DNA from: Acidobacteriota bacterium
Lineage (GTDB): Bacteria; Acidobacteriota; Blastocatellia; UBA7656
DNA length: 64,000 nucleotides
NCBI GenBank assembly: GCA_038040445.1
Contig: JBBPIG010000006.1
Location: 1-64,000, forward strand
Direction of reading: 5' to 3'
In this document: positions 49,180-64,000 of the stretch, piece after piece
Numbering within the stretch: the first letter of the stretch is position 1
Layout: the number at the start of each line of letters is the position of its first letter
The notes under the pieces: generated by a model
Database searches by the model: none
Told to the model about the DNA's origin: nothing
Seen by the model: the letters and a program-made list of their open reading frames with translations, nothing else
Position numbers and translations under genes: made by a program

Positions 49180-50997
49180 TTACCGATCATCAGGGCTTAG
49201 TGCTACTTGCGTGATCTGGAGCAGCGCCATCACTCGCATCTCCGGGCGTTGGAGTCGATCAGCCGCCAATCTGGCGCGGTCGTAATCATTGCGTGAGAGC
49301 GAGGCCAACATTTGCGCCGACTCTTGAGCAACCGTGTTCATCGGATTGCCGCTGTTGATAACGAACTCGCCGTCCCTGAAGTACTGTTGGATGTCGAACC
49401 CGTTCAACACAAGCGCCGCGCTGGCAAGCTCGTTGAGCTGATCGATCACTCGCTCGACAATCGCCGCGCTCCTGCCCGCATCGAGCTGCTCGTATGCACT
49501 GGCGATCTGAATCTGTGTTTGCAGTTGCGGGTAGCTCAGCGCTCGATCGCCGATCATCGCCTGAGCTTCGGCCAAAAGCTCAAGCGCAGTCGACTTGTCG
49601 CCTTTCGCCGCCGCGCTGGCCCCCAATTGAGTTAAGATACCAGCCCGCTCTTCCAGCGAGGGAAGCCGCGATAGTAGCGCACGCCCTTCCGCAAGCTTCT
49701 GTTGCTCGCTGGCGCGATTTACCAAATGGCGATCCAGGTTCAGGGTCATCTCCCGACGCTGTTGGGGGTCCGCAATTTGTCCGACAATCTCGCGGGCGCT
49801 CTTTTCGTCTCCTTGATTCAACGCCTTCCACGCCGCTTGCTGAACGAGATTATTCGCAACTTCCGGAGGCGCAGTTTTCGAAGCTTCAATCAACTCGCTG
49901 GCCGTGCCGTTCTGAAGAAGCTCCTGATACTTTGCCCAGGGTCCCTGCTGTATCTGGTTTGACCTGTCCATCTCCGCAATCCGCTCGCCTAAGGCGGCAA
50001 TCTGATTGGGAGACAGCCTTTCGATATCCGGCAACATCGGCTTTAGCTGCTGTAGAATTCCAACCACCTGTCCCGGATACGAGCGAAAAGATCGGCCGCC
50101 GTGAATGACCAGTGAGCCAACCGCGACCCCGGTGAAGCCGGCCGGGGCGTTGTTGAACACCGTTTTGATGAGGATGTTACTCAGCTCTCGCGCGGTCTGC
50201 TCGTCCAACTTCGCAAGCGAAAGGTGGACAGTGGAGCGCTGCCCTGACTGGTCAGACGCAGGTCGGTTACTTTCGATCCAGGTGCGCAAGAGTACGATGG
50301 CGATGTTCACCGACTCCGGGCTCCTGCTGAAGTCATCGCTCCGAAGCCGGGTCAAGATGCATCCAAGAAACTTCTCCGCAAGCGCTTTGTCCTGGGAATG
50401 AAGCCTGTAAAGCATGTTCATCGCCCCATTATCAATCGCGATCTTTAACGAATCCTCGGCAAGCGAAAACGCTTGCTGGGGTTCCTTTGCCGCGAGCTGC
50501 TCAGCGAGCCTCATCTGGAGTTGCGCTTCGAAAGCCGGTTGCGCATAAGACCGCTGCTCGGAAGAAGCTGGACGCGAGGCCCGTAAGAAATCAAGGGCTA
50601 GTTTGGGGTCGTGGTTTGCAACAACCTGGAGGATCTCCTGCCGCAGTTGCTGAGGCACGTCAGTCAGGTTTGGATACTCCCGATCCCCGCTGTCGACCGC
50701 CGCGGTCATCTCGCTCAGACTTGCTGCCGCCGATTTGAACAGCGAGCGAGCGCGCTTTTCATCTCGATCCCAAAGAGATCCTGCCAGAGCTATGTCGATC
50801 CGAATGCGATTCTCAGGCAGCCTGAGCGATTGCGCCACCTTGATGATCTCGTCTGCCAGCGCGAGCGCTTTCTTCTCGCGCTCCTCGCGAGCCTTTCTCT
50901 TTTCAGCTTCGCCAGAAGCTGATTGAGCTGATTGAGCTCGGACGCTCGGGATCACTAGGATGAGAATGAAGAGAAGCCTTGCGAGCTTTGAAGCCAT
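49180..50997 (-). CDS. Exported helical-repeat protein of unknown function
   Basis: A 605-residue protein with a signal peptide (ASKLARLLFILILVIPSVRA) and an otherwise helical structure of charged repeats similar in style to TPR/SEL-type arrays (AKEPQQAFSLAEDSLKIAI, AAAKGDKSTALELLAEAQ). No family was recognised. ATG 50997 is chosen because the signal peptide follows directly; an in-frame Met at 51078 adds 27 non-hydrophobic residues. It is monocistronic by position. Confidence 0.75.
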   Translation of the reverse strand: MASKLARLLFILILVIPSVRAQSAQSASGEAEKRKAREEREKKALALADEIIKVAQSLRLPENRIRIDIALAGSLWDRDEKRARSLFKSAAASLSEMTAAVDSGDREYPNLTDVPQQLRQEILQVVANHDPKLALDFLRASRPASSEQRSYAQPAFEAQLQMRLAEQLAAKEPQQAFSLAEDSLKIAIDNGAMNMLYRLHSQDKALAEKFLGCILTRLRSDDFSRSPESVNIAIVLLRTWIESNRPASDQSGQRSTVHLSLAKLDEQTARELSNILIKTVFNNAPAGFTGVAVGSLVIHGGRSFRSYPGQVVGILQQLKPMLPDIERLSPNQIAALGERIAEMDRSNQIQQGPWAKYQELLQNGTASELIEASKTAPPEVANNLVQQAAWKALNQGDEKSAREIVGQIADPQQRREMTLNLDRHLVNRASEQQKLAEGRALLSRLPSLEERAGILTQLGASAAAKGDKSTALELLAEAQAMIGDRALSYPQLQTQIQIASAYEQLDAGRSAAIVERVIDQLNELASAALVLNGFDIQQYFRDGEFVINSGNPMNTVAQESAQMLASLSRNDYDRARLAADRLQRPEMRVMALLQITQVALSPDDR

Positions 50998-51424
50998 GTA
51001 AACACCTCGTTCTTGTCTGGATAGTATCGACCACGGGGGCCGCTGTGCCCGGTCCGGATCCCGAAAGCTTCGCGTCAATTACTGAATTCCTGGAGGCTTT
51101 TAACGCTTGTGCTTCCCGGATGTTCCTATGCCAGCGGCGTTCGACTGCTCTTCGCTTGCTGTTCGTAAGAACGTTGCGGGCAACCATGTTTGCGAAGATC
51201 AAGTTGCCGAATGTCGGACAAACTTCAGTTTATTCGTGGGACCTGAATGCCGCGCGTCACCAAGCGCGCGACAAGCTGAAGTTGTCGGACATCGTTCACA
51301 GGAGAGAAGACCAGTGGCTCTAGAACCGGATTGAATTCGCCGATTGACATGGAACTCGCAGGGAATTCGCAGGGAGTTTGCCAACTGGTCAGCGCTGGCT
51401 TGTTGCTAGTCTGGCCCTGCAAAT
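50998..51424. other. Gene-poor gap
   Basis: A 427-bp gap. It contains an imperfect inverted repeat (TGTCGGACAAACTTCAG near 51215 and CTGAAGTTGTCGGACA near 51278) and a possible 45-codon reading frame at 51187-51323 that I do not call a gene. GGGAATTCGCAGGGA-like duplications occur near 51360. Confidence 0.45.
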
Positions 51425-51454
51425 CAAAAAGGCCCCGCTCCGACGAGCGGGGCC
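51425..51454 (-). terminator. Rho-independent terminator of the cold-shock gene
   Basis: GGCCCCGCTC and GAGCGGGGCC form a perfect 10-bp stem with a 4-nt loop, followed on the minus strand by TTTTTG. It lies 24 bp after the csp stop codon. Confidence 0.9.
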
Positions 51455-51477
51455 GTCGTATGCGCCTGATTGATTTG

Positions 51478-51684
51478 TTAAAGCCGTTTCACGGCTTCCG
51501 CCTGGGGTCCCTTCGGTCCTTCAACTACTTCGAACTCGACGGTCTCGCCCTGCTTGAGCGACTTGTAGCCGTCTTCCTGTATGGCCGAATAGTGCACAAA
51601 CACATCGGCTCCGCCCGGTTGCTCGATGAACCCATAGCCCTTTGCATTACTGAACCACTTGACCTTGCCTTGTGACATCGACAT
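51478..51684 (-). CDS. Cold-shock domain protein (CspA family)
   Basis: A 68-residue single-domain RNA/DNA chaperone. RNP1 is KGYGFI and RNP2 is [21 protein letters not shown] at the N-terminus and [11 protein letters not shown] at the end are typical. ATG 51684 is preceded by GGAGGAGG, a very strong ribosome-binding site; a longer in-frame reading to 51777 lacks family sequence. The gene is bracketed by two terminators, so it is likely expressed alone at a high level. Confidence 0.97.
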
Positions 51685-51765
51685 ACATCCTCCTCCGATA
51701 GTCTCAAAGTTTCGCGCGCCCGGGGCAGCGTCACCTGACGCTATCGTCCGCCCGTAACTTGAAAC

Positions 51766-51813
51766 AAAAAGCCGCAAAGCGACGCTCGCAACCTGCGAGC
51801 ATCCCTTTGCGGC
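51766..51813 (-). terminator. Hairpin terminator upstream of csp, after mdh
   Basis: GCCGCAAAG (51771-51779) pairs with CTTTGCGGC (51805-51813), with an inner GCTCGCA/TGCGAGC stem; read on the minus strand it ends in TTTTTG. It lies 223 bp after the mdh stop. The rest of the 351-bp gap between csp and mdh shows nothing else. Confidence 0.75.
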
Positions 51814-52035
51814 TTCCTATCAAGCTTTCACTGCGTTGCCCAAGACTTCTAGTCGCTCTGGGTAAATCTTCTAAGCCTACGCGAAGCGGGCCGCATACTA
51901 GCGCAACGACTAAACAGAGTCAAGAAAAAACGACGCCAAGCCAGGACTACTCTTTGCGGTGAGTGATCGTCTGACTCTTTGGGTTAAATAAGCGCCCGCC
52001 CGAGCTCGATGCACTGCGCCTTCTGGCGGTTTGCG

Positions 52036-53016
<981 letters not shown>

Positions 53017-53037
53017 TCAGAGGATGAGCGGACCGAA

Positions 53038-53066
53038 ATTCTATACGACGGGTTGAGAATCGTCCA
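53038..53066 (-). promoter_or_regulatory. Predicted promoter of mdh
   Basis: On the minus strand TGGACG (53066-53061), a 17-bp spacer and TAGAAT (53043-53038), 73 bp before the start codon. A moderate match to sigma70 boxes. Confidence 0.4.
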
Positions 53067-53171
53067 CGAACCGCGTCTCGAGCCGCTTATCGAAGACGGT
53101 GAGCTATCGCCGCCTGGGTGAAAGGCCGACTCGAAGCGCTGCACCGAACTCTAACGCGCCCTCTTGCAACA

Positions 53172-53273
53172 GCGGGGGCAAGCTACCCTTCCCGACCTGT
53201 GATCCTTCTAGTGATCCTGCAAACGATCAATATCAAAATAGGATACAGGTCGGGAAGGGTGGCTTGCCCCCGC
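53172..53273. repeat. Palindromic repeat family B, copy 2
   Basis: GCGGGGGCAAGCTACCCTTC (start of the left arm, 53172-53205) is mirrored by a 33-bp right arm at 53241-53273 ending GGCTTGCCCCCGC. The arms match those of copy 1 (19255-19351) but in the opposite order. It lies between mdh and the APC permease, 10 bp after the permease stop in transcription direction. Confidence 0.85.
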
Positions 53274-53282
53274 CTTGCCAGC

Positions 53283-55193
53283 TCATCCGCCGACGTGAAT
53301 CGCCGGACGGCGTTCCGGGTCGGGCTCAGCCTGGCGCAGAACTTCGCGGGTCACCGGAGCCGTCTCGCCTTCACCGAAGATCAAGTACTTCAGCAGGTAC
53401 GTTAGCGGGTTGCCTTCGCTCCAAGCGAAATAAGCGTGGGGGATCTTGCCGGTCGTGTCGCGCAGGTAGAGAAGAAGCGCCGCGATCGCGTTTGGTACCG
53501 CCGCGCTCTCTCCCCTGAGCACCCGGTAACCGTCTACCTCGACGCCCTTCACACAGAGTTCATCACTGAACTCCGAAGCATCGCCGATGTCGACTTCCAG
53601 AAACAGTATCGGATCACCTTTTGGAATGTGGTTGTCCTCGCGCTGCTCTTTTTCTTTGAATCGATACTCGCCCGCATCGCCTGCTTGCCGGCAGTTGGCG
53701 ACGATTCGAATCTCGTGACTGCGTGCGACCTCCTCGATAAAAGCGCGCGCCTTCTCGTCAAGCTCGACTCGCTCGATGCGCAGCTCAGTCGTCCGCATCA
53801 CCCTCGACACAAACGAAGCGGCGATGATTGACCCGATGAAGAACGACGCGATCTTTATGCCTTCGGGCCGCTCGATGATGTTCAGCACCGTCGTGTACGC
53901 GAACACCAGCGAGATCAGCACGAAGGCCCAGCCGTGTTTGCGGCGGCGAAAGGCTGAAAGCGTCACCGCAACCGCGCCCGAGCTCATCAGCACCAGAACG
54001 CCGGTCGCGTAAGCCCCGCCCTGTGCTTCGACGTCCGCTTTGAAAATCAGCGTCACAGCAAACGCGATCGCAGTGTACACGAGCACCAGCGGTCTGACGG
54101 CAGCGGCCCACTTGGGCGCCATTCCATACTTGGGCAAGTACCTCGGGACTATGTTTACCAATCCGGCCATCGCCGACGCGCCCGCGAAGGAAAGAATGAG
54201 AATCGTGCTCAGATCGTAGGCGGTGCCAAAGACACTGCCGAGGTATTTGTGCGCAATGTAGGCGAGCGCGCGGCCGTTTGCCTGTCCACCCTTCGCAAAC
54301 TCGGCGGCGGGGATCAGCGTCGCCGTCACCACGCTGCTGGCGATCAGCATCGCGCTCATGATCAAAGCCGCCGTGCGAAGCAGCTTGCGCGTATTGGCGA
54401 TTCTTCCGACGGGATTCTCTTCAGTATCCGTTTCATATCCTTTGACCAGCGGCATCACGACCACGCCCGTTTCGAATCCCGAGAGTCCCAGGGCGAGTTT
54501 CGGAAACACGATCAACGCCACGCCGATCATCGCAAGCGGGCTTCCGTGAGCGCTGATCAAAGCGTTCTTCCAATCTGACAGCGCAGCCGGATGAGTTGCG
54601 AGCTCGTAGAATCCCACGCCTACGACAATGCAGTTCAACAGCAGGTAAGCCCCGACCAGCAACACCGACACGCCGATCGCTTCTCTGAATCCCTTAAGAA
54701 AAATCGCGCCCAGGAAAGCGACTAAGAACAGCGTTATTGCGATGCGGTTGTGCAGGAAATGCGGAGTGAAAGGATTCTCGACAATGTGAGCCGTAGCGTC
54801 GGCCGCCGATAGCGTGATGGTGATGATGAAATCCGTTGCCACGAAGCCCAGCAGCACAAGCACAAACAGCTTGGCTTGCCATCCGGGCAGCAAGTGCTCG
54901 AGCATCGAGATCGAGCCGTTGCCGTGCGGACTCTCTGCTGCCACTCGATTGTAGATCGGCAGCGCTCCCAGGAGCGTGAGCAAGACCAGCACCAGCGTGG
55001 CAATTGGTGAGAGTGCGCCGGCCGCCAGGAACGCAATGCCCGGTTGATACCCCAGCGTCGAAAAATAGTCGACGCCGGTCAGACACATCACCTTCCACCA
55101 CGGATGCTGGTGCTCCTGGTTTTTAGACGAGGAGTCAGTGGGCTCGCCCATCCGCAGTCTTAGCAACCATTGGTGAAAAGTGCTTCTCGCCAT
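53283..55193 (-). CDS. APC-superfamily permease, possible potassium/amino-acid transporter
   Basis: About 636 residues: 12 or so membrane helices followed by a ~140-residue cytoplasmic C-terminal domain. The helix-1 region [20 protein letters not shown] and [10 protein letters not shown] are APC/KUP-like. The substrate is not readable from sequence; potassium is suggested only by the adjacent Kdp genes and the second permease with a USP-like tail. ATG 55193 is a conservative start; an in-frame reading to 55322 adds an Arg/Cys-rich segment without family sequence. It is 143 bp after the second permease. Confidence 0.75.
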
Positions 55194-55336
55194 GGACGGC
55201 AGAAGTGTAGCGAGTGATTGAGAGGTCGTACAGGCGCGACGGGCAGGTGCGCTACAACACAGGCGTCTGGAAACTCTTGACGTTCGGCGAATCCGCCACC
55301 AACGCAGGTGGTCGGAACTCAATGACGCCTCGAGAA

Positions 55337-57742
55337 CTACAGCTTAGTCCGTCCGGCATTCGCGACATCTTTACCGTCTTTGTCGGAGCCCGGTTCCTGC
55401 ACACCTTTTCGCTCGACTTTGTAAAAGTCCAGCATCACATCGGTGTTCCCGCGTAGTTCTCGCTCGAGCCGCTCGAGGGCCACCCGCACAACATCACGGT
55501 GATGAACGCGGCGTCGTGCTGGAAGCTGGCTCACTTGCAGCCAGATCTTGTGGATCAAGCTAATGTCATCCTCGGTGAGGTCGGGAGCATGCGCACCAAG
55601 CGAGACGCTGTGTTCGCGATTTCCTGGCTCCACGATCCTGCACCACACTTGACGGCGTGGTGTTTCGGCCAGGCGTTCCCACGCGCGGCCCAGTTCGCGC
55701 GTCTGCTCATTGGCGGTCATCTTGGAGGAAAGACCGGCGACGATCTCGGCAGAGTCCAGACGCAGAGCGGTCTGTGCCACGGCGTCAAAGAGGTTGGTCG
55801 CCGGAACGACAACCAACTCGACCGGTTTGCCATGCTTTTCGGCAAGCGCAACGACTCGCGTAAACAGGCGTTGCTCGTAATCCGTAAACAGATTGGAGTC
55901 ATAGAGGTCACGCTCGCCTGCGTCCGGGCCTCTCATCAACCGCGCGGTCATCACCAATATGTCTTGCGCTTCGGTGTTGGTTCGCCCCAACACGTAATCG
56001 AGATGCGAGAGCGTGTTGTAGTCTCGCACGGCAACGAGCACGCTGCCGGGCCGCGCGCGGACAGTATCAAGGCTCACGTCAGGCTGATAGTTGAGTGTGA
56101 ACTGGTCAAGGGCCGCAGTTGATCTGTCGAGTTTTCTCTGATTGATGCGCTCGGAGACCGTAAAGACTATGAAAAACACAATCGTGAACGCGACTCCCGC
56201 TATGGTCGCCACTTCCTTGGTGATCAGATTGATTCCGGCGACGGAAAACAGCAACACCGCGATTATCCCCAGCCCAACCGGGATCTCCTTGCCGCGCACA
56301 TTTATATTGAAAGGTACTCTCCACTCGCGATGCGATTTGTCCTTGAAGCGCAGCACCAGCATCGCCAGGCCGTTGAAGGTAAACGCCCAGATGACACCGA
56401 AGGCGTAAGCCTCCCCCAGCAAATAGGTGTTGCCGCCCGAGGCTATGATCGCCAACAGTTGCAAGAGCACTATCAGATTGATCATTCGGTACGTCGTGCC
56501 AAATCTCTTATGCGGCGCCCGGAACCAGTCGGTCATCACTCCGTCTTCTGAGACACGATTCAGCACTCCGTTAGATCCGATGATCGAAGTATTGATGGCG
56601 CCTGACAGCATCAGGCATCCGACGATCACAATGAACGCTTGAAACAAGAGCTTCAACGGCAATGGGCCGGCAAGATACATAGCAATGCCGCTGATTAAGT
56701 TGTCCCTATAAGTCATCCTGACGCCATCTGGAATAAGCGCGTACGCGAAGAAAGAAACAAGCGATGTGAACAGCACCGAAAAAACGAAGATCACAAACCC
56801 GGCGCGCATGAGATTCTTGTGCTTCGGGTGTTCGAGTTCGCGGTTGACCTGGGCGAGTGACTCTTCGCCGGACATCGCAAGAAAGGAATGCCCGAATGCC
56901 ATCAGTATCCCGATCAGACCCAACAGGGCTCCCGCGTTGGCCACAATGCCGAGGCGTGGCTCAGTCTCCTTTTGCTCGGGCTCGGTGGCCGACGCCGTTT
57001 CGGGTGGCAGCTCACGCAATGCGCCGGGGGCGATGGCCGGCAACCAGCCGACTGCGTCGCGATTGAACGACAAATTGTGCGGTACCGGCGCCGGAGGCAA
57101 TCTCTGTTTGTCCGGCTGGGTGATGATACTGTAGCCGGCCCACAGAATAAGCATGACAACCATCGCCGTTGTCACGTACATGATCCGCAGTGCATCCCCC
57201 GATGATTCATGCATCCCCATGGTGTTGCGCCACCAGAAATAAATTGTTACGAGAATGGCGATGCCTGCTGCCAGATAATTCGTCGTTGATGGCGATGGAT
57301 TCCATGGATGGCCGAAGTAAGTCACGGTTTGCGCGACGAGCCCGACGACGTATTGCCCGGCTGAGACGCCGGAGATCGGGCCTGTCAAAATGTAGTCGAA
57401 CATCAACGCCGAGACCGAGAGCTTCGCGAGCGTCCCACCCATCGATTCTTTGACTACGCGGTAAACTCCACCTCGCGTGAACATCACGCATGATTCGACA
57501 TACACAGAGCGCACTGCATAAGAGAAGAGCATAACGCCCAGAACGAACCAGGGAGCCGCTCGCCCGACTGCTTGCTCCGCGATGCCGCCGACGTAATAGG
57601 CCGACGACCCAAGGTCATTGAGCACAATAGCCGCCGCGCGCCAGAACGAGATGAACGACAGCAGTACAGTTGTAGCTACAACGACCCTGACGCGAGTGGG
57701 ATTCTTTACGCCGTTCTTAGACGTGACCGCATCTATTGGCAT
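55337..57742 (-). CDS. APC-superfamily permease with USP-like C-terminal domain
   Basis: About 801 residues. Twelve or more membrane helices (for example [18 protein letters not shown]) are followed by a cytoplasmic part of ~250 residues that resembles a universal-stress-protein fold ([27 protein letters not shown]). A long hydrophilic loop of ~60 residues sits between helices 5 and 6. APC permeases with USP tails include the potassium importer KimA, so a K+ role is plausible here beside kdp. ATG 57742 begins 8 bp after the zinc-ribbon stop, in the same transcript. Confidence 0.75.
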
Positions 57743-57749
57743 AAGCGTT

Positions 57750-58034
57750 TCAGTTTCTCCGCCGCGACTCGACGCTCTGCCGCTCATCGTCCACGCTTTG
57801 TTGCATTGTGTCCGGCGGAACCGATGGGATGCGCGGCCTAAACGCGAGCACTTTTCCTTTTGAAGCTAAGTCGAAGCTGCCGCATTCAGGACATCGGTAG
57901 GCGTACAGGTAGATCTCGGTCTGGTTGATCCTTACCAGCCCGGCCGGTAGCTCGACGCCGCGGCCTTGCCAGGCGCATTTGCGGCAGAGGAGGTTTTTGG
58001 TTTCTATATTGATTTCGCGACCGACCGATAACAT
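57750..58034 (-). CDS. Small zinc-ribbon protein
   Basis: A 94-residue protein with two Cys pairs, C17-R-K-C20 and C48-P-E-C51, spaced like a zinc ribbon. An Arg/Ser-rich tail follows. No family was recognised. It is the first gene after the 11-bp repeat operator and ends 8 bp before the USP-type permease, so it may regulate or assist it. That is inference from position. Confidence 0.7.
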   Translation of the reverse strand: MLSVGREINIETKNLLCRKCAWQGRGVELPAGLVRINQTEIYLYAYRCPECGSFDLASKGKVLAFRPRIPSVPPDTMQQSVDDERQSVESRRRN

Positions 58035-58123
58035 AAGCGCCAGAGGCTTCTTTGTTTACTCGGCCGTAACCAGCGGAGCGATTGGCGGCTCACAGAAGTC
58101 TCAGTGTCATCGTACTGCCCTCA

Positions 58124-58169
58124 ACATAAGAATGGCATAAAAGGTCTATAAAGGTTTCATAAAGACGAG
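58124..58169 (-). promoter_or_regulatory. OmpR/PhoB-type operator (KdpE-like): three 11-bp direct repeats
   Basis: On the plus strand ATAAAAGGTCT (58137-58147), ATAAAGGTTTC (58148-58158) and ATAAAGACGAG (58159-58169) are contiguous; on the minus strand each ends in TTTAT. The period is exactly 11 bp. A TTATGT candidate -10 (58129-58124) would put the -35 inside the box, the geometry of PhoB-type activation. The genes served are the zinc-ribbon and two permease genes starting at 58034. KdpE is the obvious candidate because kdp genes are adjacent. Confidence 0.65.
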
Positions 58170-58176
58170 GTGTGTA

Positions 58177-59343
58177 CTACTCATCTTGAAGCGGAACAAC
58201 CTGGACGGTCGCGCCGCGCACTTCACTCAGAAAGCGATTGATTACCGAGCCATGAAGCAGGATGTTCCATCGCGAGCGAGCCGATTGCCCGAACACCACA
58301 TGAGTGATGCCCTCGCGCCGGGCGAATTCGATAAGGGCGTCGGCAACGCGCCGCTCCCTCAGCTTCACTACATTCGCCCCGAGTTCCTCGGCGAGCTTGA
58401 TGTTCTCGATCAGAGCAGCGTGATCCGCCGGATTCATCCGGCCGGGTTCCTCGCGCGGCGTTTCGACGTAGACCGCGTACCAGTCCGACGCCAGCCGTCC
58501 CGCGATGCGCGAGCCCGTTCGCAGCAGCTTCTTTGCGCTGCCGCGTGACGCCATGCACACCATAACTTTTTCTGGAATCGCGGCCTGCTCGAGTCCTTCT
58601 CGTTCGCGATAGTCGTGGGCCTTTGCCGCTTGATCTTCGGCCACTTGGCGCAAAGCCAGCTCGCGAAGGGCTGACAGATTCCCTTTGCGGAAAAAGTTAG
58701 TCAGCGCCTGTTCGATCTTCTCGACGCTGTAAATCTTCCCCTGGCGGAGCCGCGTTCGCAGCGTGTCGACCGAGACATCCACGTTGACTACTTCGTCGGC
58801 GCGGCGCAGGAAATAATCGGGAATGGTTTCGCGCACTCGGACGCCGGTTATGCGGGCGATCGCGTCGTTTAGGGATTCAATGTGCTGAACGTTCACCGCA
58901 CTGATTACTGAGATACCGGCGTCGAGGATCTCGAGCACATCCTCGTAGCGCTTGCGATGCTTCGAGCCAGGGACGTTCGAGTGCGCGAGCTCATCGACTA
59001 GAACTAAGGCGGGCCGGCGCGCGATGACCCCGTCCACGTCCATCTCTTCCAGCGTTACGCCCCGATAATCTATGCGGCGCAGCGGTATGCGCTCGAGGCC
59101 GCCTATCAGTGTCTCAGTTTCTGCGCGGCCGTGCGGCTCGATGAAACCGATTACGATGTCGACGCCCTGACGCTTGAGCAAGTGCGCCTCTTCGAGCATC
59201 TGATAGGTCTTGCCCACGCCTGGCGCGGCGCCCAGATAAATGCGCAGCCGGGCGCGGCCCGCTTGCTGTTGTTTGGCGAGCAGCGACTCGGCGCTCGGCC
59301 GCGCGCCGGCCAATCGATCCGTTGTTGCCTCGTGGGAGACCAT
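58177..59343 (-). CDS. kdpD: KdpD N-terminal sensor protein without kinase (KdpD + USP domains)
   Basis: A 388-residue protein equal to the cytoplasmic N-terminal half of KdpD. The KdpD domain (about 30-240) has Walker A GAAPGVGKT (38-46) and LVDELAHSNVPGS. A USP domain (about 257-385) follows with the ATP-loop FGQSARSRWNILLHGSV. There are no membrane helices or histidine-kinase domains. It starts 6 bp after the sensor kinase stop. Together they look like KdpD cut into two polypeptides with the order reversed. It should sense K+/ionic stress or c-di-AMP, as full-length KdpD does. Confidence 0.93.
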   Translation of the reverse strand: MVSHEATTDRLAGARPSAESLLAKQQQAGRARLRIYLGAAPGVGKTYQMLEEAHLLKRQGVDIVIGFIEPHGRAETETLIGGLERIPLRRIDYRGVTLEEMDVDGVIARRPALVLVDELAHSNVPGSKHRKRYEDVLEILDAGISVISAVNVQHIESLNDAIARITGVRVRETIPDYFLRRADEVVNVDVSVDTLRTRLRQGKIYSVEKIEQALTNFFRKGNLSALRELALRQVAEDQAAKAHDYREREGLEQAAIPEKVMVCMASRGSAKKLLRTGSRIAGRLASDWYAVYVETPREEPGRMNPADHAALIENIKLAEELGANVVKLRERRVADALIEFARREGITHVVFGQSARSRWNILLHGSVINRFLSEVRGATVQVVPLQDE

Positions 59344-59349
59344 ATGAAC

Positions 59350-61209
59350 TTACGCGGTATGTCTAATGCTTGCCGGGCCTCCTGTGGTCAGCGCAAAAGT
59401 AAAGGTCGCGCCGCTACCCGGACGGCTCTCGACGCTGACTTGTCCTCCTTGAGCCTCCACAAGCCGCCTCACCAGCGCAAGTCCCAAACCTGTGCCGTCC
59501 GCCCTGTCACCAACGCGATTGAACCGGCTGAAGATAGTCGGAAGGTACTGCTCGGGTATGCCCTCGCCGGTGTCCCGCACGCTGAAGTAAACGCGCCCGA
59601 CCTGCTCGTTTGCTTCAATCGCGACGCTGCCGCCGCGATCGGTATGACGTATGGCGTTCGACAGCAGGTTATCGAGAATGCTGGCAATCGCCCGCCGGTC
59701 CCCAACCACCCAGGACAGGTCCGGCCAGATTTTGTTCTCCAGTTTGATCTGCCTGCTGTCGGCGGAGGCGCGAAACCGCTCGACTGCTTCACGCGCAAGA
59801 TCGATGGGCCGCAACCTTTCCATCGAAAGCCGCCGCGCGCCCGAGTCGATCTCTGCGAGCTCGAGCAAATCGCTGATCAGCTCATCCAGCTTGTCCGCGT
59901 TCTCTCGGGCGCTTCTGAGCATTTCGTTCTGCTGTTCAGTCGCCTCGCCGACATACCCTTCGATGACCGCGTGAAGCGCGAGCCGCAGCGAATGAAGCGG
60001 CTCACGCAGCTTGCTCGACGCGACCGAGATGAACGCTGTTTTCAGCTTATCTACTTCGGTGATAGCGGTGATGTCTTCAAGCAAGGTGACCGCGCCAAGC
60101 AGCCGGCCTTCCGAGTCTCGCATCGGAGTCGCGCGCAGGCGGAAGTCGCGCTCCGCCCCGCCCAGCTTGATGGGAACGATCGCGGCTTCGCCGTCCACGG
60201 CAACCGGCCGCTGCATGGAAACGGCATCACGTACCGCGCGCAAGATCCGCTCGCCTCCTTCGAGGCTTTCCAGATCGGCGCCGTCGCCATCGCCGCTCAG
60301 GAAACTGCCGAACAGTTGCCGGGCCGCGCGATTGATTTTGATTACACGATTGTGCGAGTTGGTTACTATCACCGGCTCGCCAATGGAATCGATGACCGCG
60401 TCAGACTTCTTTTGCTCGATCAACAATCTGCCGAAGTCAGACTTGCGCAGGTCACGAAGGCGGACGAGCATCCGGTTGAATTCCGTGGCAAGCACGCCTA
60501 TTTCATCCTTGGAAGAAACGCTTATGTGCTGATCGAAGTCGCCCTCGCCGATGCGCTTTGCCTTTTCGGCAAGCATAGAAATCGGATCGACGACATACCG
60601 GGTGAATCTCCAGGCGAAGAAGAGAGCCAGGGTAATCGCCAGCACAGCCGTGACGGCGGTGGATATCTCTCCTCGCCTGGAAACAGAAACGGCGCGGTCG
60701 TTTGCAGCGACCATCGCCCGCTGATTCAGGTGCAGCAAATCGTCGAGCCGGTTCTTGAGAGAAAGAAACTGCGGCTCCAGCCGCTCAAAATAAGTGTTGG
60801 ATAGCTCGACGGTTTGTCTGGGTGGGGCTCGGCTGAGAAAGCTCTCGAGGTCCTTCTTGTATGCCTGATACTTGAGGCTTATGTCGGCGACGATTTCGGA
60901 TTCGCCTGCCTCGGTAATATTGCCCTGAGCGATCTCGAACTGCTCGGCGAACCTCTGGCTATTTGTTTCGAACTGCTCGCGTGCTTTGTTGCCGTGGCTG
61001 GCGATGAAGAACATCGCGGCCGAGTCCTGTCGTTCGAGCGCCTCCTTCATGTTCTCCGCTGCCGTGATGCTCTTGTAGTTGTTGACCAGGATTACATCGA
61101 CCGCTCGCCCCAGTTGCACAAGATGGTAGATGCTCCACGCGCTGACTGCGAGGATGATGATGATCAGCAGTCCGTAGCTGAATGCGAGTTTTCGTCTCAG
61201 GCTGTTCAT
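59350..61209 (-). CDS. Membrane sensor kinase of the kdp locus, phospho-acceptor His replaced by Ser
   Basis: About 619 residues: helix at ~10-28, extracytoplasmic helical sensor domain ~30-180, second helix ~182-200, HAMP (~202-255), PAS (~265-385), HisKA-like (~388-455) and HATPase (~500-610). The ATP site is intact (DNLLSNAIRHT, DTGEGIP, GTGLGLALVRRL). In the HisKA box FxxxxSHELRTPL the sequence is FISVASSKLREPL: Ser399 (codon 60015-60013) stands where His should be. Such a protein could act as a dominant partner, or phosphorylate in an unusual way. The start is taken at ATG 61209; a Met at 61272 is upstream. Confidence 0.9.
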   Translation of the reverse strand: MNSLRRKLAFSYGLLIIIILAVSAWSIYHLVQLGRAVDVILVNNYKSITAAENMKEALERQDSAAMFFIASHGNKAREQFETNSQRFAEQFEIAQGNITEAGESEIVADISLKYQAYKKDLESFLSRAPPRQTVELSNTYFERLEPQFLSLKNRLDDLLHLNQRAMVAANDRAVSVSRRGEISTAVTAVLAITLALFFAWRFTRYVVDPISMLAEKAKRIGEGDFDQHISVSSKDEIGVLATEFNRMLVRLRDLRKSDFGRLLIEQKKSDAVIDSIGEPVIVTNSHNRVIKINRAARQLFGSFLSGDGDGADLESLEGGERILRAVRDAVSMQRPVAVDGEAAIVPIKLGGAERDFRLRATPMRDSEGRLLGAVTLLEDITAITEVDKLKTAFISVASSKLREPLHSLRLALHAVIEGYVGEATEQQNEMLRSARENADKLDELISDLLELAEIDSGARRLSMERLRPIDLAREAVERFRASADSRQIKLENKIWPDLSWVVGDRRAIASILDNLLSNAIRHTDRGGSVAIEANEQVGRVYFSVRDTGEGIPEQYLPTIFSRFNRVGDRADGTGLGLALVRRLVEAQGGQVSVESRPGSGATFTFALTTGGPASIRHTA

Positions 61210-61261
61210 ATCAAGCTTGATAGCAATGGTACGCCGGAGGCGGCGAAAGCCTCTCCTGCGT

Positions 61262-61437
61262 ACCATACCCACCTCGTGAGAGGTGGGTTCGTGATGTTGT
61301 AGCCTACAAAAGGAGCGCGCTCGACTATCTTGGGCACCATACCCACCTCGTGAGAGGTGGGTTCGTAATGTTGTAGCCTACAAAAGGCTGCGCTCTCGAC
61401 CATCTTGGGCACCATACCCACCTCGTGAGAGGTGGGT
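61262..61437. repeat. 74/75-bp tandem repeat with internal hairpin between kdpC and the kinase
   Basis: Units start at 61262, 61336 and 61411 (periods 74 and 75; the last is cut short after 27 bp). Each begins with ACCATACCCACCTCGTGAGA, in which CCCACCTC and GAGGTGGG pair. The rest (GTTGTAGCCTACAAAAGG etc.) is conserved, with small changes. It lies in the 254-bp gap between the kinase and kdpC genes, where no gene is called. Confidence 0.85.
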
Positions 61438-61463
61438 ATTCAAACCACGTAGGTGTTGCCTCA

Positions 61464-62042
61464 TCACTTGAGTTCGCCCCTTCTATCGAGCGCCAGGTTC
61501 AACTCAAGCACGTTAACGCGTGGCTCCCCGAGAATGCCGAACTGTCGCCCCTCGGCATGCTCGCGCACGATCCGTCGGACCTCATCTTCACTCAAGCCGC
61601 GCTCGCGGGCAACGCGCGGAACTTGAAACGCAGCCGCCGCCGGGGTGATATGAGGATCGAGCCCCGATGCGGAAGCCGTTACCATGTCGATCGGTACAGG
61701 CGAGCCGGGATTCTCTTCTCGCAATGATTCCGCGGCAGTCTTGACGTTGTCCATCAGCTTCTGACTGGTCGGCCCAAGATTCGTTCCGGCAGAAGCGGTC
61801 GCGTCGTACCCGCTTCCCGCCGCAGAAGGCCGCGAATGAAAATAGCCCGGCCCGGTGAAGGGCTGGCCGATCAAGCTCGATCCAATGATCTTGCCGTCCT
61901 TTTCGATCAGGCTGCCGCCTGCCTTCGCGGGGAACATCACCTGCGCGAGTCCGGTGACAACCAGAGGGTAAATGATTCCGAGCAGCACCGTGAGCACAAC
62001 GGTCATTGCAATCGCTGGGTAAATCTGTTTCAAGATATTCAT
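61464..62042 (-). CDS. kdpC: Potassium-transporting ATPase subunit KdpC
   Basis: A 192-residue accessory subunit of the KdpFABC high-affinity K+ pump. One N-terminal membrane helix ([20 protein letters not shown]) and the conserved soluble part: [41 protein letters not shown] and [17 protein letters not shown] precedes ATG 62042; an in-frame Met at 62063 is upstream of it. It follows kdpB by 52 bp in the same transcript. Confidence 0.96.
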
Positions 62043-62094
62043 CGACTCTCTCCTGGCCCACACTGTGTGCGGGCGAGACGCTTGCGCTCCCGGC

Positions 62095-64000
62095 TCAGGC
62101 GAGCCCTAACGCGTGAATGATCACATCTATGACTTTTATCCCGATGAACGGGATGATGATTCCACCGAACCCGTAGATCCACAGATTGCGCCGAAGCACC
62201 GCTGCCGCGCCCATCGGGCGATACTTTATACCGCGAAGCGCAAGCGGAATCAGAGCGACGATGATCAGCGCGTTGAAGATCACCGCCGATAGAATCGCCG
62301 ATTGGGGCGTCTCGAGCCGCATGACGTTGAGCGCCGCGAGAGGACCGGACTTCGCGCCGGTCAGCGCATACAACGTCGAGAACATCGCCGGGATGATGGC
62401 GAAGTACTTGGCGACGTCGTTGGCAATCGAGAATGTAGTCAACGCGCCGCGGGTCATCAGCAACTGCTTGCCGATCTCGACGATTTCGATCAGCTTGGTC
62501 GGGTTCGAATCAAGATCAACCATGTTGCCGGCTTCCTTGGCCGCCATCGTTCCTGTGTTCATCGCGACGCCGACGTCGGCTTGAGCCAGAGCTGGAGCGT
62601 CGTTGGTGCCGTCACCGGTCATCGCCACGAGCTTGCCCTCGCCCTGCTCGCGTTTTATCAAAGCCATCTTGTCTTCGGGCTTGGCTTCGGCGAGAAAGTC
62701 ATCAACGCCGGCTTCGCGCGCGATGGCTGCGGCGGTCAGCGGGTTGTCGCCGGTTATCATGACGGTCTTGATGCCCATCCTTCTGAGCTGATCGAAGCGC
62801 TCTTTCATCCCGCCTTTGACTATGTCCTTCAGGTGGATGATGCCCAGCGCCCGGCTGTGATCGGCGACTGCCAGCGGCGTGCCTCCCGACCTCGCAATAC
62901 GCTCGACTGTCTCCTTCATTTCAGGCGGGACTACGCCGCCTTCGGTGTTGATGAACTGAGTAATCGCGTCGACTGCACCTTTGCGAATCACGCGGCCATC
63001 GATGTCAACTCCTGACATGCGAGTCTGCGCGGAGAACGGAATAAAATGGGCTTCGCGCTCGGAGAGCTCGCGCCCTCTCAAGCTGTATTTCGACTTCGCG
63101 AGCACGACTATCGACCGGCCCTCGGGTGTTTCATCCGACAGGCTCGAAAGCTGAGCCGCATCGGCAAGCTCTGTTTCGGAAACTCCATTCATCGAGATGA
63201 ACTCGACCGCTTGCCGATTGCCCAGCGTGATCGTTCCGGTCTTGTCGAGCAGCAGCGTGTTGACATCGCCTGCTGCTTCGACCGCGCGGCCGGACATCGC
63301 CAGCACGTTGTGTTGAATCAACCGGTCCATTCCCGCGATGCCGATCGCGGAGAGCAGGCCGCCGATCGTGGTGGGGATCAAACAGACAAGCAACGCGACA
63401 AGCACCGTGATGGTCGGAGGTGATGACGGAGCGAATCCGGCCCCGGGATCCGAAGCGTTCACGCTGTAGATCGCATAGGGCAAAAGCGTGACGACAGCCA
63501 GCAAGAAAATAATCGTCAGTCCCGCGAGCAGGATGTTCAGCGCGATCTCATTCGGAGTCTTCTGACGTTCCGCGCCTTCCACCAGCACAATCATTCGATC
63601 GAGAAATGTCTCTCCAGGGTTCGAAGTGATTCGCACCTTGATCCAGTCGGAGATTACTTTCGTGCCGCCAGTGACCGCGGAGCGGTCGCCGCCGGACTCA
63701 CGAATTACTGGCGCGCTCTCACCGGTGATTGCTGATTCGTCTACGGAAGCAACGCCGTCAATGATCTCGCCGTCTCCGGGGATGAACTCGCCGGCGTGAA
63801 CGAGCACAACGTCGTCTTTGCGAAGTTGTGGCGCGGGAACTTGCTCGGTCTTCACCCCCTCGACGCCGGCGCTAACCTCCCCGATGACGCGATTGGCGAT
63901 TGCCTCCGTCTTAGCCTTGCGAAGCGTCTCGGCCTGAGCTTTGCCTCGGCCTTCAGCCATCGCTTCAGCGAAGTTCGCAAACAACACCGTGAACCACAGC
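62095..64000 (-). CDS. kdpB: Potassium-transporting ATPase subunit KdpB (5' part outside the window)
   Basis: P-type ATPase subunit; at least 635 residues are visible and the N-terminal part (about 50 residues) is missing beyond the right edge. The reading frame is open to the last base ([20 protein letters not shown]). Motifs: TGES actuator loop (ITGESAPV), phosphorylated Asp in [24 protein letters not shown] and [16 protein letters not shown]. The final helices (FALTGAK-like and [14 protein letters not shown]) are typical KdpB. kdpA and perhaps kdpE presumably lie to the right. Confidence 0.97.

Follow-up and report, generated by a model that had tools for sequence, protein, structure and literature searches.

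A candidate KdpE-regulated promoter in front of APC permease genes in the Blastocatellia (Acidobacteriota)

Results and Discussion

In the window (the whole stretch of 64,000 nucleotides analyzed here), positions 58109 to 58163 of the minus strand carry an array of 11-bp direct repeats followed by a −10 box, which we interpret, with a probability of roughly 0.88, as a KdpE-regulated promoter that activates a zinc-ribbon-like gene (ZnR), the APC-superfamily permease gene APC1 and possibly a second permease gene, APC2, under K+ limitation. The array, the −10 box, their specificity and conservation and the link to kdpE are read from the sequence, whereas the binding and activation by KdpE, the K+ signal, the transcript and the transported substrate are predicted from it.

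Structure of the array and its promoter

The array consists of four units set at 11-bp steps, TTTATGAAACC, TTTATAGACCT, TTTATGCCATT and CTTATGTTGAG, running from 58163 down to 58120 on the minus strand, with the half-sites TTTATG, TTTATA, TTTATG and CTTATG. Unit 1 (58153 to 58163) corresponds to the class consensus TTTACGAACTT, unit 2 (58142 to 58152) to TTTATAAAnCC, unit 3 (58131 to 58141) to TTTACCCCATC, and unit 4 (58120 to 58130) to (C/T)TTATGC. An earlier note on this DNA had placed ATAAA at 58137, 58148 and 58159, spaced by 11 bp, and all three positions are exact, representing TTTAT units on the minus strand; its count of three units has to be raised to four, with a further ATAA(G) in phase at 58126. 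When up to three mismatches were allowed, the three-unit pattern gave two overlapping matches in the window, compared with a mean of 0.18 in shuffled sequences, and the exact three-unit pattern occurred only once in the 6.75-Mb genome. Triple TTTAY arrays at other periods (6 to 10 and 12 to 15 bp) were absent from the window.

Downstream of the array, the −10 box TACGAT (58109 to 58114, minus strand) is in register with alignment columns 50 to 55 (TANNNT) of the related arrays described below, in which the first T was conserved in 29 of 30 sequences, and the A and the final T in all 30; it is at these three positions that −10 boxes are best conserved. The hexamer TTATGT (58129 to 58124), previously proposed as the −10 box, turned out to be part of the fourth repeat unit; the accompanying proposal that the array covers the −35 position of a TTATGT promoter holds for the −35 place and fails for TTATGT as the −10. 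A generic sigma-70 scan of 57900 to 58400 yielded no match, the −10 being weak and the array occupying the −35 place. Transcription would be expected to start near 58102, so that some 68 bases of leader would precede the start codon, ATG, at 58034.

Genes around the array

The unit under putative control begins with ZnR (57750 to 58034, minus strand), which encodes a 94-aa zinc-ribbon-like protein scoring below the Pfam cutoff. Its end is overlapped by APC1 (55337 to 57787, minus strand), an 816-aa, putatively KimA-like APC-superfamily permease with a predicted C-terminal cytoplasmic alpha/beta domain, and APC2 (53283 to 55322, minus strand), a second APC-type permease, follows 15 bp after APC1 as annotated, with its true start probably near codon 46. 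Control of APC2 would depend on cotranscription with ZnR and APC1, which we assume; a scan for terminator-like sites listed none in the gap from APC1 to APC2, such scans being weak evidence.

On the other side, the array lies 14 bp past the final kdp-operon gene, which encodes a KdpD N-terminal domain joined to Usp (58177 to 59343, minus strand) and ends at 58177, just upstream of the operator. The same operon contains kdpC (61464 to 62063, minus strand) and kdpB (minus strand, from 62095 to past the window end, with most of the gene inside the window). Just outside the window lie kdpA, a porin gene and a second operator (contig positions 68657 to 68708), as well as kdpE (contig positions 69236 to 69937), which together with the C-terminal half of kdpD spans 69236 to 71169.

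Several features of this neighborhood were observed in passing. KdpD is split, with the N-terminal KdpD plus Usp gene in the kdp operon (58177 to 61272 region) and, beside kdpE, a kinase that corresponds to the C-terminal portion of the protein (contig positions 69236 to 71169; L028 13236 to 15169), and this split recurs in relatives. The kdp operon also contains a further histidine kinase gene, of HAMP/PAS type and lacking a KdpD domain, and a small unlisted ORF before kdpA, MNLEYIVSGFIALALLAYLMYALIRPEKF (contig positions 66292 to 66381; L028 10292 to 10381), is likely kdpF.

A profile of kdp-linked arrays singles out two sites in the genome

A sequence-only profile was trained on 30 kdp- or kdpDE-linked arrays, all from other Blastocatellia (Acidobacteriota), with this genome and the arrays upstream of APC genes left out of the training. 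The 30 arrays aligned gap-free across 59 columns, each unit with its own consensus. A search of the whole 6.75-Mb genome returned two matches only, namely, the window site (E value of 2.0e-8), where the match covers 58109 to 58163 and includes the −10 box, and the genome's own kdp promoter at 68657 to 68708 (E value of 7.3e-6), which lies between kdpE and the porin-kdpF-kdpABC genes. By weight matrix, the window site scored 50.4, compared with −6.2 for the second-best place in the 64 kb and with leave-one-out scores of 32 to 75 for the training sites. The site had earlier been described as preceding the ZnR and APC genes rather than kdp; its position before ZnR and APC is borne out, whereas the separation from kdp is not, the kdp operon having the same operator.

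Across the class, TTTAY-N6 arrays lie mostly directly after kdpE, upstream of kdpF/A or of a porin gene. The earlier note had suggested looking in relatives for the array upstream of kdpA and of the permeases, its lack of conservation there counting against the proposal; the array was found between kdpE and kdpA in many relatives, and also before homologues of both APC1 and APC2. In another class of the Acidobacteriota (one family; L223 to L228), TTTAY arrays pointing in either direction were also observed next to kdpE and kdpA; downstream, these have ATCAAAT or TCCAATC in place of the TANNNT box.

That the repeats are a functionless A+T-rich stretch arisen by chance is extremely improbable. 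Intergenic regions do have a higher A+T content, and the array is missing before APC1 in some relatives, but the exact three-unit array has no second copy in the genome, the profile match extends to the −10 box, and the operator recurs before eight APC1 orthologues (see below), so that we regard chance as statistically refuted.

KdpE as the likely regulator

The operator was detected in 69 of the 147 class genomes, 68 of which also encode a KdpE orthologue. KdpE without a detected operator was found in 15 genomes, while 63 of the 64 genomes without KdpE had neither. For this co-occurrence over 147 genomes, the Fisher P value is ∼1e-25, a statistic that ignores shared ancestry. The sole operator-bearing genome without a KdpE orthologue (G005) keeps kdpE remnants beside the operator. 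On its contig C135 (L044 10914 to 12996), the kdp operon has apparently been deleted; the operator and the porin gene remain, and around them only short pieces of kdpE, of kdpA and of the gene for the KdpD N-terminal domain are left.

Among solved structures, the best match of the KdpE encoded by this genome was Escherichia coli KdpE (4kny). R193, R200 and T215 of the E. coli protein, which are required for DNA binding (PMC3264566), are conserved in it. The site mapped for KdpE in E. coli reads TTTATA-N5-TTTACA (PMC3264566), and the window array matches it in half-sites and in the 11-bp step. The kdp-trained profile, the co-occurrence with KdpE and these half-sites all support the KdpE-type operator suggested in the earlier note, and the assignment of the window array as a KdpE operator is a strong prediction from sequence.

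Another response regulator of the OmpR/PhoB family that reads 11-bp direct repeats could in principle own the array, considering that such repeats are common to the family and that the genome holds many OmpR-family candidates (77 listed at first look). We consider this very improbable, as the operator adjoins kdpE in most genomes, also precedes kdp, and tracks KdpE across the class, and its half-sites equal those mapped for KdpE in E. coli.

Operators in front of permease homologues in related genomes

Including the window, the operator was found within about 600 bp upstream, and on the same strand, of eight APC1 orthologues (G000, the genome of the window, and G002, G004, G082, G115, G116, G121 and G128), and in G002 and G004, too, a ZnR homologue separates the operator from APC1. 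This association does not merely reflect proximity to kdpE, because kdpE sits on another contig in G004 and G082. Against the proposed control of APC1 stands the patchy distribution of the operator: a same-genus genome had none before APC1, and no KdpE was detected in it either; no array was found at the second APC1 copies of this genome and of G002, the former (G000:C10, L192 703 to 2976) being ∼67% identical to APC1. The APC1 tree requires three or more gains or losses of the operator.

APC2 homologues occur in 120 of the 147 class genomes. The operator was found upstream of them in G012, G069, G105, G112 and G138; in G024 and G087, APC2 has an operator of its own, which sits back to back with the one on the kdp side; and G095 has a shorter array before its APC2 homologue. 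Among the 29 APC2 homologues examined for arrays within 700 bp, 26 had none. Operator pairs, one per direction, were observed between divergent kdp-side genes and APC2 at L172 (4705 to 4842) and L039 (4040 to 4131). In addition, kdpDE and the operator are directly linked to an APC permease at G002:C55 (L191 and L206), G128:C18 (L148), G115:C74 (L231), L174 and L176, and kdpFABC was not seen within the sequence read in those stretches. The KdpD N-terminal gene was looked for in G002 and G012 and was not found.

These arrangements also bear on the direction of control. KdpE might bind the window site and repress the APC genes, or block or restart transcription where the kdp operon ends, given that the site lies 14 bp past the last kdp-operon gene and that an operator placed at −35 may serve for repression as well as for activation. 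However, its placement relative to the −10 box is the same as at the kdp promoters, which KdpE activates in E. coli, and in G002, G004 and G082 the operator stands before ZnR-APC1 or APC1 with no kdp genes directly upstream, making a role in repression or restart improbable and activation of the permease genes the preferred reading.

What the permeases may carry

APC1 carries the Pfam domain AA_permease_2, and NCBIfam offered no useful name for either permease. Searches of PDB sequences by phmmer and hmmsearch with APC1, APC2 and their profiles gave no matches, KimA included. An AlphaFold model of APC1 (12 sequences) was of low confidence, with a mean pLDDT of 55; the three best structural matches of this low-confidence model were all Bacillus subtilis KimA (6s3k, 8b70 and 8b71; Foldseek E value of ∼4e-13), which aligned to the model (pLDDT 55) with a Z score of 22 across 489 to 513 residues, spanning both the membrane and the cytoplasmic domains. 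Cation-chloride cotransporters and amino acid transporters ranked next. KimA imports K+ in bacteria, and a KimA-like APC1 would fit a K+ regulon; as a lead from this low-confidence model, APC1 probably imports K+ as KimA does. The APC2 model, built from two sequences, reached a pLDDT of 40. A relation between APC1 and APC2 was sought by profile comparison as well, and the result (E value of 0.024, probability of 2%) was unusable.

It is quite possible, though not our favored view, that the KdpE operator is real while APC1 and APC2 carry another substrate, such as an amino acid, ammonium, a chloride-coupled cation or a compatible solute, as part of an osmotic response. The AA_permease_2 match, the transporter families ranking after KimA and the low pLDDT of the APC2 model would all allow this, whereas the top rank of KimA, with coverage of the membrane and cytoplasmic domains of a low-confidence model, and the nature of the regulon as a K+ regulon argue for K+ as the substrate.

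Comparison with known systems

Like the E. coli kdpFABC operator (PMC3264566), the window array is composed of T-rich TTTAY direct repeats with an 11-bp start-to-start distance, to be read by an OmpR/PhoB-family regulator with conserved DNA-contact residues. The two differ in the number of units (four here and two in E. coli), in position (the last unit here adjoins the −10 box; in E. coli, the site occupies −72 to −50) and in the genes that follow, which here include APC permease genes as well as kdp. Tandem 11-bp direct repeats able to stand in for a −35 element are shared with PhoB/OmpR operators generally, from which the array is set apart by its KdpE-type half-site, TTTAY. In Mycobacterium smegmatis, the KdpE site is a 22-bp, A-rich sequence reported to be unlike other KdpE motifs (PMC5401905); a KdpE-dependent kdp promoter would be common to both systems, but in sequence the array of the Acidobacteriota is of the kind known from E. 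coli.

The low-confidence APC1 model resembles B. subtilis KimA in its predicted APC fold and C-terminal cytoplasmic domain, and differs in having 17 to 18% identity to it (on a low-confidence model) and in its gene being preceded by a KdpE operator, with no Rfam riboswitch (e.g., c-di-AMP) at the gathering score in 50000 to 64000. According to a 2017 paper, KdpE sites had been identified in four species only, all at the kdp promoter (PMC5401905). Judging by titles and abstracts, we found no report of KdpE control of KimA-like or other APC permeases in the open-access literature.

Proposed mechanism and implications

In the mechanism that we propose, the KdpD kinase would sense low K+ and lead to phosphorylation of KdpE, two head-to-tail dimers of which would then occupy all four half-sites. 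Bound to the array in the −35 place, with the last unit just upstream of the −10 box, KdpE would recruit RNA polymerase, and ZnR and APC1 would be transcribed from near 58102, with APC2 reached by read-through. With two dimers instead of one, the response may be steeper or stronger than at the E. coli operator with its two half-sites. As the kdp operon, 10 kb upstream, would be driven by the same operator, kdpFABC and the APC permeases would form one K+-limitation regulon.

A four-unit version of the KdpE operator is thus defined for the class, where it tracks kdpE over 147 genomes. By the evidence of these operators, the kdp regulon probably extends to APC transporter genes, such that the low-K+ response of this soil bacterium would turn these on too. 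We put at even odds the broader proposal that KdpDE in the Acidobacteriota is a general regulator of K+ supply that has repeatedly recruited APC/KimA-like K+ importers, with the permease perhaps replacing the Kdp pump in some genomes. The finding would place uncharacterized APC permeases of the Blastocatellia in a K+-limitation regulon and predicts, for these permease families, both the signal (low K+) and the substrate (K+), predictions that are directly testable.
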